Shown: piece after piece, positions 19,594 through 25,307 of the stretch
Position numbering within the stretch: the stretch's first letter is position 1
Layout: each line of letters starts with the position of its first letter
Assembly: GCF_003991135.1 (NCBI RefSeq)
Contig: NZ_CP016379.1
Location: forward strand, 1-64,000
Source: Anoxybacter fermentans
GTDB lineage: Bacteria; Bacillota; Halanaerobiia; DY22613
Direction: 5' to 3'
Length of the DNA: 64,000 nucleotides
The notes under the pieces: generated by a model
Databases searched by the model: none
Told to the model about the DNA's origin: nothing
The model's input: the letters and a program-made list of their open reading frames with translations, nothing else
Made by a program: the position numbers and the translations under genes

Positions 19594-19814
19594 GATTATA
19601 CTGCAATAAGCTAATTTTTCGCTTCTGGAGAAATTTTTCGAATCATCTAAAACTCGATTTCCGCCGAAATAAGGCTTCCTAATCAAAGGGCCCTCCTGGC
19701 CCTTAGAACTAGCTCATCACCTCCTGTGATAAGGCCTTATTTCGTCGGAAATCTCGTGAAGATTTGGCGAAAAATTTCTATGTCGCTCAAAATTAGCTTT
19801 TTGCAGTATAATCA
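19594..19814 (-). repeat. Dispersed palindromic repeat, copy D (reverse)
   Basis: Reverse copy in a divergent gap between the CPBP gene and the aldolase gene. Both ends carry GCAGTATAAT facing outward, so each arm could supply a -10 element for the gene on its side. The rest of the gap to 19942 shows only the aldolase ribosome site. Confidence 0.88.
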
Positions 19815-19942
19815 TTATTACTTTATTACTATTGGACATTTTCTTCAATATTCCTTTGCAGGAGTCCAGGTGAATATTAGAGAATAATGATATTATAGTG
19901 ATTATAATTTGTTTTTAAATAACGAAATAGAGGTGGAAGTAT

Positions 19943-20587
19943 ATGTTGATGCTAGAAGTTCGTAAAAAAGTGATTGAAACAGCACGGAAAATGCTCAAAT
20001 ATGGTTTAACTACGGGTACATTTGGAAATATCAGTATCAGGCATCAGGAAATTCTGGTGGCAATAACTCCTAGTGGTGTAGATTATGAATCAATGATTCC
20101 CGAAGATGTAGTGATTGTTGATTTAAATGGTCAGGTTATTGATGGAGATTTGAAGCCGTCTTCAGAAATGCCGATGCATCTGGCCCTGTATCGTAAAAGA
20201 GCTGATATACAGGCTGTAGTTCATACCCACTCTCCCTATGCTTCTGCTTTTGCTGTTTTGGGCCAGGAGATTCCCGTAGTATTGGCAGAGATGGCTTCTG
20301 TGGTTGGTGGTTCTGTAAAGGTAGCCCCTTATTGCCGGCCCGGTTCGGCAGAGATGGGGAGAGAAGTGGTACGCTGCCTGAGAGATCGGACAGGAGTGTT
20401 ATTGGCAAATCACGGAGTGGTTGCTATTGGTTCTACTGTTGATGAAGCATTAGGGGTAGCACAGGTTATTGAAGATAGTGCCCGTATTTATCAACTGGCA
20501 GTAGCTATGGGAAATCCGAGAATACTTCCAGAAGATGAGATTCGGGTGTTAAGAGAGCAATATATTAAACATTATGGGCAAAAATAA
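19943..20587 (+). CDS. Class II aldolase/adducin-family protein
   Basis: 214 residues, the size of L-fuculose-phosphate and related aldolases. Zinc ligands are visible in HTHSPYA and NHGVVAIG, and the catalytic Glu in PSSEMPMH. Such enzymes make dihydroxyacetone phosphate and an aldehyde from a sugar phosphate; related members handle methylthioribulose phosphate or phosphopentoses. The substrate cannot be chosen from sequence. It is the first gene of a tight four-gene run leading into cdaA, although a functional link with c-di-AMP is not obvious. Confidence 0.82.
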   Translation: MLMLEVRKKVIETARKMLKYGLTTGTFGNISIRHQEILVAITPSGVDYESMIPEDVVIVDLNGQVIDGDLKPSSEMPMHLALYRKRADIQAVVHTHSPYASAFAVLGQEIPVVLAEMASVVGGSVKVAPYCRPGSAEMGREVVRCLRDRTGVLLANHGVVAIGSTVDEALGVAQVIEDSARIYQLAVAMGNPRILPEDEIRVLREQYIKHYGQK

Positions 20588-20599
20588 GCGTAAGGACTG

Positions 20600-21415
20600 A
20601 TGGGAATGAATGTTCCACTGACCATTATTATCAATGTAATAGATATTCTTCTAGTGGCTTTTGTTTTTTATCGGTTGATTTTGCTAATCAAAGGGACAAG
20701 AGCTATTGAATTGATCAAAGGTCTTTTTGTGTTATTTCTGGCTTCAGCCATAAGTGCCAGGTTGCAACTTAACACCATTAACTGGCTTTTGCGTAATACT
20801 ATGACCATGGTCTTTGTGGCTTTGCCAATCGTCTTTCAACCTGAATTGAGACGGGCTTTAGAACAGATTGGAAGAGGAAGATTTTTTGGTCAGTCAGTCT
20901 TTCGGTTAGGATGTTCAGAGTTAAGTCAAATTATTTCGGATTTAACAGAGGTAGTTATGTTTTTTTCTAAAAATCGGATTGGTGCTCTAATTGTAATTGA
21001 AAGGGAAGTTGGATTACGAGATTATCTTGAGATGGGGATAGAATTGGATGCAAAATTGACAAAAGAACTTCTTGTATCCATCTTTCTCCCTGGTTCCCCC
21101 CTACATGATGGAGCGGTGATTATAAGACAGGATAGGATTAAGGCTGCCAGCTGTTTTCTTCCCTTATCGGATAATCCTCATCTAAATCCTACCTTTGGAA
21201 CCCGACATCGAGCAGCAGTTGGTGTTTCCGAAGATAGTGATGCGCTGGTTATTGTAGTCTCAGAAGAGACTGGTACCATATCATTAGCCTTTGAAGGTAA
21301 AATAAGACGATATTTAGATGAAATTAGTTTAAAAGAGAGATTATTTAACATCTTGACAAATCCCAATAAAGAAAAAGTATCCAGGTTTGGTTTAAATTGG
21401 AGGAAAAATAAATGA
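20600..21415 (+). CDS. cdaA: Diadenylate cyclase (CdaA type)
   Basis: 271 residues. Three N-terminal membrane segments (about 1-95) precede a DAC/DisA_N domain. The catalytic motifs DGA (170-172) and RHR (202-204) are intact. It makes the second messenger c-di-AMP from two ATP at the membrane and controls potassium and wall homeostasis in Firmicutes. In the usual order cdaA is followed by cdaR (ybbR) and glmM. Here ybbR overlaps by 4 nt, and glmM follows after one inserted gene. Confidence 0.95.
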   Translation: MGMNVPLTIIINVIDILLVAFVFYRLILLIKGTRAIELIKGLFVLFLASAISARLQLNTINWLLRNTMTMVFVALPIVFQPELRRALEQIGRGRFFGQSVFRLGCSELSQIISDLTEVVMFFSKNRIGALIVIEREVGLRDYLEMGIELDAKLTKELLVSIFLPGSPLHDGAVIIRQDRIKAASCFLPLSDNPHLNPTFGTRHRAAVGVSEDSDALVIVVSEETGTISLAFEGKIRRYLDEISLKERLFNILTNPNKEKVSRFGLNWRKNK

Positions 21416-23440: not shown

Positions 23441-23624
23441 GTTAAACTGTAAAAAGCTAATTTTTCGCTTGAAGATAAATTTTTCGAACCATCTAAAAGT
23501 TTGATTTCAGTGACTTGATTAGCTCATCACCTCCTCATATGGGTCTTATTTCGCCTGAAATTTCGCCAAAATGGTTTGGTGAAAAATTTCTATGTCGCTC
23601 AAAATTAGCTTTTTGCAGTATAAT
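23441..23624 (-). repeat. Dispersed palindromic repeat, copy E (reverse, shortened)
   Basis: Reverse copy of about 184 bp. Both terminal inverted repeats are present but the central apical hairpin is missing, an internal deletion. The right end reads TTTTTGCAGTATAATTTATA, 32 nt before glmM, and could supply its -10 box. Confidence 0.88.
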
Positions 23625-23655
23625 TTATATAGATAATTATGGAGAGGTGGTTAGA

Positions 23656-25005
23656 ATGGGTAAACTTTTTGGAACAGATGGTGTAAGGGGAAAAGTAAAT
23701 GAGAAATTGACTCCGGAATTGGCATACCAATTGGGGCGGGCTGGAGCATATTATTTTCTGAAAAATAGTGAAAACCCTTACAGAAAAATAATCATTGGTC
23801 GTGATACCCGAATTTCAGGACCCATGTTGGAAGCAGCCCTTATAGCTGGGGTTACATCTATAGGTGTTGATGCTATTATTTTGGGAGTTGTACCAACTCC
23901 AACCGTAGCTTTTTTAGCTCAATATCTGGAAGTGGACGGAGGTATAATGATCTCTGCTTCCCATAACCCATATTATGATAACGGGATCAAATTCTTTGAT
24001 TCGCAAGGTTTCAAATTGATGGACGAGATGGAAGAAGAGATTGAAAGACTGGTTGAAGCAGGAGTTGAAAAACTACCATATGCTGTTGAGAATCAGGTTG
24101 GCCGTGTTGGTCAATTGGATGATCCTTTGCAGCCTTATATAGATCATTTAAAAAATACCATAAATGGTGATCTTTCGGGATTAAAGATTGTCCTGGATTG
24201 TGCTAACGGTGCAGCTTTTGAAGCGGCGCCAAGGCTCTTTAAGGAATTGGGAGCTGAGGTTATACCTATTTTTGCAGAACCTGATGGAGTTAATATCAAT
24301 GATAACTGTGGTTCTACTCACCCGGAAGAACTTAAAAAACAGGTTCTGGCTCATGGGGCTGATCTGGGAATTGCCCATGATGGTGATGCAGACCGGATGA
24401 TTGCTGTGGATGAAAAAGGTCGCGTGGTCAATGGAGATGCAGTAATGGCCATTTGCGGTCTGGATATGATGAAGAAAGGTAAATTGAACCACAATACTGT
24501 TGTGGTGACAGTTTATAGTAATCTGGGTTTAAAGGAATTGTTGGAAGAACACGGTGGTACTATTTCACAGACCAAAAATGGTGACAGGTATGTGTTAGAA
24601 AGAATGTTGGATAAAGGGTATAATCTGGGTGGTGAACAGTCAGGTCATATAATCTTTTTAGATTATGCGACTACCGGTGATGGACTGTTGTCAGCGGTAC
24701 AGTTATTATCAGTTTTGAAGGAATCAGGTAAGAAACTTTCTGAGCTGGCAGATCAATTAAAGCCATGGCCCCAATTGATTGATAAGGTAAAGGTAAAGAG
24801 AAAAGAAGAGTTTAAGACAAATGAAGTTATCCAGGCTGTAATTAAGGATACTGAAGAGCGGCTTAAGGCCGGAGGAGGAAGACTTTTGGTAAGACCTTCG
24901 GGAACAGAACCGGTCATAAGGATTATGTTGGAAGGAAAGGACCTGGCTCAATTGGAAGCTGAGTTAGAACCGATTAAAGAAGTAATTGATCGTGAGTTAA
25001 ATTAA
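23656..25005 (+). CDS. glmM: Phosphoglucosamine mutase
   Basis: 449 residues, normal length. Converts glucosamine 6-phosphate to glucosamine 1-phosphate for cell-wall precursors. The phosphoserine loop ISASHNP places the active Ser at residue 102. The metal-binding loop DGDADR and the C-terminal phosphate loop RPSGTEPVIRIM are intact. I use the ATG at 23656 with GGAGAGGTGG upstream; a longer frame from 23515 reads through the dispersed repeat and is not real. Followed by glmS, so the two successive steps are adjacent. Confidence 0.96.
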   Translation: MGKLFGTDGVRGKVNEKLTPELAYQLGRAGAYYFLKNSENPYRKIIIGRDTRISGPMLEAALIAGVTSIGVDAIILGVVPTPTVAFLAQYLEVDGGIMISASHNPYYDNGIKFFDSQGFKLMDEMEEEIERLVEAGVEKLPYAVENQVGRVGQLDDPLQPYIDHLKNTINGDLSGLKIVLDCANGAAFEAAPRLFKELGAEVIPIFAEPDGVNINDNCGSTHPEELKKQVLAHGADLGIAHDGDADRMIAVDEKGRVVNGDAVMAICGLDMMKKGKLNHNTVVVTVYSNLGLKELLEEHGGTISQTKNGDRYVLERMLDKGYNLGGEQSGHIIFLDYATTGDGLLSAVQLLSVLKESGKKLSELADQLKPWPQLIDKVKVKRKEEFKTNEVIQAVIKDTEERLKAGGGRLLVRPSGTEPVIRIMLEGKDLAQLEAELEPIKEVIDRELN

Positions 25006-25086
25006 ATTTTTTAAAAGAGAAAATTCCGTTAAAGGAGAAAAAATTGTTAACAGGATTGTATTATTCTGATATAATCTATATTAGGG

Positions 25087-25307
25087 TTAAACTGCAAAAA
25101 GCTAATTTTTCGCTTCTTGAGAAATTTTTCGAATTATCTAAAGCTCGATTTTCCGCCGAAATAAGGTTTTCTAATCAAAGGGTCCTTCTGGCCCTTAGAA
25201 CTAGCTCATCACCTCCTGTGATGAGGCCTTATTTCGTCGGAAATCTCGCTAAGATGATTTGACGAAAAATTTCTATGTTGCTCAAAATTAGCTTTTTGCA
25301 GTATAAT
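25087..25307 (-). repeat. Dispersed palindromic repeat, copy F (reverse)
   Basis: Full-length reverse copy between glmM and the glmS ribozyme. Its right end has TTGCTC, an 18-nt spacer and TATAAT (25302-25307), a plausible promoter for the glmS leader. Confidence 0.9.

Follow-up and report, generated by a model that had tools for sequence, protein, structure and literature searches.

BOX/RUP, ERIC and other bacterial miniature inverted-repeat transposable elements (MITEs) are intergenic repeats that occur in hundreds of copies and combine inverted terminal repeats with strong RNA folding. The Correia elements (CREE) of Neisseria have ends that make sigma-70 promoters, for which activity was shown, and at mtrCDE such an element was reported to lie between the native promoter and the genes, so that the mRNA leader includes it (PMC2649163). 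We analysed the first 64,000 nucleotides of contig NZ_CP016379.1 from Anoxybacter fermentans (this whole stretch is referred to as the window), with a focus on copies D, E and F of a short repeat that lie ahead of a class II aldolase gene, glmM and glmS, respectively. An earlier note on this DNA had read −10 boxes at the ends of these copies and proposed that the repeats may act as portable promoters for c-di-AMP and cell-wall precursor genes. As a whole, the best explanation of our results is that D, E and F are MITE-like insertions carrying half a promoter and that the native glmS promoter lies outside the repeat, a reading to which we assign a probability of about 0.7.

The right ends of D, E and F read GCAGTATAAT, all letters of which were verified in the sequence. 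In each of them GCAG stands directly 5' of TATAAT, and the hexamer is aimed at the gene expected from the earlier note, with the gene identities upheld by Pfam. The copies, their boxes and the promoter discussed below are:

19594–19813, + strand: copy D, subfamily 1, right end pointing rightward to the aldolase gene (boundaries from target-duplication analysis)
19807–19812, + strand: TATAAT at the right end of D, −35 region poor, 5.26 bits
23440–23625, + strand: copy E, shorter (~186 bp), with subfamily 1 ends, ahead of glmM
23619–23624, + strand: TATAAT at the right end of E, 31 nt ahead of the glmM start
25047–25075, + strand: predicted glmS promoter TTAACA-17-TGATATAAT, 11/12 with an extended −10, just upstream of F
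25085–25308, + strand: copy F, subfamily 1, between glmM and glmS
25278–25307, + strand: TTGCTC-18-TATAAT at the right end of F, the best end promoter among D, E and F, 8.47 bits
25302–25307, + strand: TATAAT at the right end of F

Two further details of the earlier note were confirmed. Copy D carries TATAAT at both ends, the left one reading from 19600 to 19595 on the minus strand, 32 nt before the start of a protease-like gene at 19563 (minus strand), and in F TTGCTC at 25278–25283 is followed by an 18-nt spacer and TATAAT. Copy E is bordered by the near-duplicates GATATAG and TATATAG.

The three copies belong to a MITE-like, non-autonomous family of ~221 bp that numbers ~500 copies in a genome of 3.56 Mb; according to this copy estimate the family is unusually dense and makes up ~3% of the genome. 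Allowing up to 3 mismatches, a 24-nt end pattern gave 538 + 511 matches in the 3.56 Mb genome (~1,049 ends) versus 0 for the reversed control pattern. Within ~2.45 Mb of sampled stretches we recovered 360 paired copies, 229 of which were full length. Most elements measure 200–225 bp counting the terminal 6 bases; they are short, high-copy, without coding capacity, and bear long terminal inverted repeats (GRTTAWACTGCAAAAAGCTAATTTT...). Flank comparison placed the boundary six bases past GCAGT, that is, one base past TATAAT, and the element terminus reads ...GCAGTATAATC with the hexamer inside the element. Target duplications of 6–7 bp were detected, with exact matches in 16 and 10 of 75 cases versus 0.9 and 0.6 expected from shuffling; a TA target duplication of the IS630-like kind was dropped, as the 6–7 bp duplication fits instead. 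Since the target duplications set the boundary one base beyond TATAAT, the box is the element's own and not the target's.

The hexamers at 115 ends from the first 464 kb of sampled DNA included TTTAAT (33), TAAAAT (25), TATAAT (21) and TTTAAC (16), and exact TTTTTGCAGTATAATC occurs 104 times genome-wide. Clustering of the element interiors, with the ends excluded, separated two subfamilies: subfamily 1 has TATAAT at its right (R) end and TTTAAC at its left (L) end, while subfamily 2 has TTTAAT (R) and TAAAAT (L). All subfamily, gene and orientation counts given here are based on a simple purpose-written gene caller. Because TATAAT lies within the terminal repeat of subfamily 1, the boxes of D, E and F represent a single inherited feature and not three independent hits. 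To this extent the idea of portable −10 boxes stands: as part of the R-end terminal repeat, the hexamer is inside a mobile element and travels with it to each new insertion site.

Correia elements and this family have small size, high copy number, lack of autonomy and terminal inverted repeats in common. At the Correia ends a sigma-70 promoter is present in part or in full, and at the ends of this family its −10 part. In the Correia Black promoter the element supplies the −35 and the junction completes a partial −10 (PMC2649163), whereas here the whole −10 is inside the element, a −35 was not found and any promoter activity is putative. The two also differ in sequence: the Correia end motif TATAG[CT]GGATTAAC... 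is absent from this family, whose ends are GRTTAWACTGC and which has the 6–7 bp target duplication. Correia elements are the nearest functional parallel and not the same family by sequence. Compared by description, not sequence, the family is also like BOX/RUP, ERIC and other MITEs in the features named at the outset.

We then asked how good the ends are as promoters. Scored against a sigma-70 promoter, D and E reached 5.26 bits at their right ends and F 8.47 bits, while the best site in the 130 bp upstream of element-free genes had a median of 6.3 and shuffled sequence one of 5.9; that is, the D and E ends score under the shuffled-DNA median. The combination of a −35 and a −10 at 16–18 nt, as expected for sigma-70/A, was not found: the −35 match is ~2/6 in D and E and 3/6 in F. 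Across the family, 37 of the 40 gene-facing TATAAT ends matched merely 2/6 bases of the −35 consensus TTGACA. None of the D, E and F ends was listed by a simple promoter scanner, and no enrichment of native promoters was detectable in the upstream flank of the elements or between element and start. With a −10 box and no matching −35, a repeat end alone would be expected to serve at most as a weak or context-dependent start site.

At glmS, the predicted promoter upstream of F scored 12.98 bits versus 8.47 for the F end. We compared the locus with that of a relative, G001, where the gene order of the window cluster is kept and two different searches detected no elements of the repeat family. Its glmM–glmS spacer contains a −35, a spacing and an extended −10 identical to those at 25047–25075. 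As F starts at 25085, it was inserted ~9 nt beyond the −10 of this promoter. Thus, the proposal that the repeat drives glmS was not supported: a better promoter is located upstream of F and is conserved in a relative that has no repeat. Between F and glmS lies a further regulatory feature, which the earlier note, as with the promoter upstream of F, does not mention:

25386–25553, + strand: glmS ribozyme-riboswitch (RF00234), 130.1 bits

The position of F, together with the conservation of the upstream promoter, suggests that F inserted just past the native glmS promoter and that the transcript carries it as an additional structured leader in front of the ribozyme; the predicted RNA fold of F has −94.7 kcal/mol (z −12). 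In the simplest reading, glmS would still be started at the 25047–25075 promoter and F would lengthen its leader, a situation resembling that of the Correia element at mtrCDE, likewise between promoter and gene. Copy E sits in the gap before glmM and D in the divergent spacer before aldolase–cdaA, and the repeats at this locus would mainly represent insertions into regulatory DNA of a conserved gene cluster. Any expression from a repeat end would probably add to native transcription, not create it. Upstream of the aldolase gene, comparison with G001 showed that the ~130 nt separating D from the start are partly conserved. A block at ~19826–19890 (TATTGGACATTTTCTTC...CCTTTGCAGGAG...GTGAATATT.GAGAAT) is kept in G001 and occurs only once in the sampled genome. 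Read-through from upstream genes into glmM is possible. For the aldolase gene, glmM and glmS, a repeat-borne −10 box should hence not be equated with a promoter, and in the case of glmS the predicted promoter is outside the repeat.

Several points weigh against reading D, E and F as insertions with half a promoter. Native promoters of glmM and the aldolase gene were not identified at the locus, a consensus −35 may be dispensable for promoters in this organism, and some promoter use would explain a family-wide bias of the elements to face downstream genes. In tandem gene contexts, the R end (TATAAT) of subfamily 1 was directed toward the downstream start in 61:31 copies (p=0.0023), and the L end (TAAAAT) of subfamily 2 in 52:21 copies (p=0.0004). 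The polarity relative to genes reverses between the subfamilies along with the end that bears the −10-like hexamer (R facing the start 61:31 versus 21:52, Fisher p=2e-6), and this flip is the best evidence for the promoter idea. Removal of copies within an rhs tandem array (1.94–1.98 Mb) did not abolish the bias.

In its full form, the promoter idea holds that a functional −10 is provided by TATAAT (subfamily 1 R) or TAAAAT (subfamily 2 L) and that gene-facing copies were kept for the transcription they supply or boost. Apart from the flip, it draws on the first sample, where the end with the −10-like hexamer tended toward the downstream start, on a pooled test stated beforehand and performed on an independent sample (35/53 facing the start, one-sided p=0.0135), and on a third sample that, analysed by subfamily, gave 35:19 in the same direction. 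The share of ends facing a start was 66% for TATAAT and 59% for TAAAAT versus 42% for TTTAAT and 38% for TTTAAC, and the Correia promoters of Neisseria provide a precedent (PMC2649163). However, within a subfamily the bias was alike for intact and altered hexamers (40:19 versus 21:12 and 31:12 versus 21:9), young copies showed it as strongly as old ones with no rise with age, and the distance from element to start codon did not differ between facing and non-facing copies. Selection driven by the hexamer, backed by the first two samples, was downgraded because hexamer state had no effect once the subfamily was fixed. Taken together with the essentially absent −35 and the stronger promoter that glmS has of its own, these data leave the portable-promoter proposal partly supported at the level of the family, by its bias toward downstream genes, and overall doubtful; that the repeats would drive c-di-AMP and cell-wall genes is mostly unproven.

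The bias is moreover confounded with replication direction, which leads to a second, still tentative possibility: it may be set at insertion, by transposition coupled to the direction of replication or transcription, with the subfamily ends opposite in polarity and the hexamers without a promoter role. Such a mechanism would fit a bias that is independent of hexamer state and age. Since ~90% of the genes are co-oriented with replication, the two directions are nearly one variable and inseparable in tandem contexts. In gene-neutral contexts, however, the counts were 30:22 along replication, a weak tendency whose difference from the tandem contexts is not significant (p=0.18), and exact TATAATC ends were found genome-wide at 56:44 along replication (p=0.27). 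Neither of these counts separates promoter selection from replication coupling.

A third alternative concerns the interior of the element. The core forms a conserved three-way-junction structure in which a closing stem is joined by a pair of AGGA-loop hairpins, and is located in a further copy:

51080–51300, no strand assigned: copy G, subfamily 2, AGGA-loop core at 51142–51241 on the + strand

Its predicted RNA fold has −111.8 kcal/mol (z −15.9). Related elements, ~70% identical, exist in other families of the class; in more distant relatives (L081, L082 and L084) the inspected ends are not TATAAT while the core is retained, and sharing of the core was noted between 51142–51241 of the window and L082, L084, L085 and L083. 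In 17 of 31 core pairs both sides had changed, and 93% of cells were paired versus at most 46% in slid controls. The AGGA loops are nearly invariant across families of the class, and a covariance model of the core had hits in 16 of the 59 genomes examined from the class and in another three from the phylum, most of which carry several copies. The structure, as RNA or cruciform, may thus be what is selected, either binding a protein such as CsrA or being cut by RNase, with the promoter-like ends incidental. As in CsrA-binding RNA, the hairpin pairs have GGA in the loop, and csrA is present in this genome; yet most of the class has csrA too, whether the element is there or not. Relative to the downstream gene, the strand with AGGA is the sense strand in subfamily 2 and the antisense strand in subfamily 1, and sequence cannot tell an RNA function from a DNA function. 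We regard this reading, with the core as the selected part of the element, as unlikely.

In architecture, the core resembles Bacillaceae-1 RNA (RF01690) read on the opposite strand: there, an AAUAAGG segment is followed, in the same order, by two (R)UCCU-loop hairpins (AGGA in the complement). A motif study described the reverse complement of Bacillaceae-1 as looking like a CsrA-binding RNA and proposed CsrA binding for it; its discoverers were reportedly unsure of the strand (PMC4333381). In this family, the core differs by its closing stem and by its location within a longer mobile element. The Bacillaceae-1 covariance model gave 24–29 bits for related elements in G003 and 30–31 bits for sites in G015; the best score, 31.3 bits, is below the gathering threshold of 35, as were all scores wherever tested, and the window's genome gave no match. 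At the Rfam gathering score, no family was assigned to the repeats of the window.

That a widespread mobile family spreads CsrA-site-like double AGGA hairpins plus weak promoters upstream of hundreds of genes, with the gene-facing tip switched between subfamilies, is improbable. By distributing promoter fragments or RNA-binding sites, a repeat family can rewire many genes together, and this family is notable for its two subfamilies of opposite polarity relative to genes and for a structured core common to a bacterial class.

No autonomous partner sharing the ends of the family was found in the ~2.45 Mb sampled. Two candidates were rejected: an IS256-type gene at 671–673 kb, which lies between family ends but is not directly flanked by them, and an ISL3-type gene, which likewise has none directly flanking it (both transposase labels were assigned by eye, not by search). 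At 1.943–1.982 Mb of G000 (L199, L179), a repeat copy occurs per ~2.1 kb or a multiple of that. These copies belong to a tandem array in which rhs-like gene tips are accompanied by small partner genes, and they are not independent insertions. Several element ends continue into AAAATAAGATTA..GCCCG or GTCCGAAGGGCAT rather than into the usual end (window 8763; L066 8735; L067 3473; L078 3404; L079 17971; L080 9979), which suggests that a repeat of a second type is joined to the element. The remaining copies in the window are:

8548–8769, no strand assigned: copy A, downstream of the rRNA operon
13974–14184, no strand assigned: copy B, orientation opposite to D–F, subfamily 2-type ends TTTAAT/TAAAAT
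15396–15615, no strand assigned: copy C, orientation opposite to D–F, subfamily 2-type ends

Copy A follows directly on the 5S rRNA gene that ends the operon. The genes around D, E and F are:

18847–19563, − strand: CPBP/Rce1-like membrane protease gene (CAAX-protease-like; PF02517)
19943–20587, + strand: class II aldolase gene (PF00596), with cdaA 12 nt further on
20600–21415, + strand: cdaA, diadenylate cyclase for c-di-AMP (DAC domain; PF02457, PF19293)
21412–21792, + strand: probable cdaR/YbbR-like gene, by its position between cdaA and the FAD protein
21793–23394, + strand: FAD-dependent protein gene (PF21688)
23656–25005, + strand: glmM (PGM/PMM family)
25620–27446, + strand: glmS

A Pfam search with the small protein in the cdaR position (21412–21792) gave no match. 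The start of glmM lies 261 nt past the preceding gene, with the cluster order kept in G001, and a search for glmM in named genomes returned distant relatives only. Downstream of the cluster, the last ~99 nt of glmS (27348–27446) are repeated at 28826–28924 and 50843–50941 with 82% and 94% identity, bracketing a ~22 kb stretch. The glmS 3' end may have served an integrated island as its attachment site. One open reading frame in the ~22 kb stretch past glmS resembles a RAMP-type CRISPR protein, as judged by eye.

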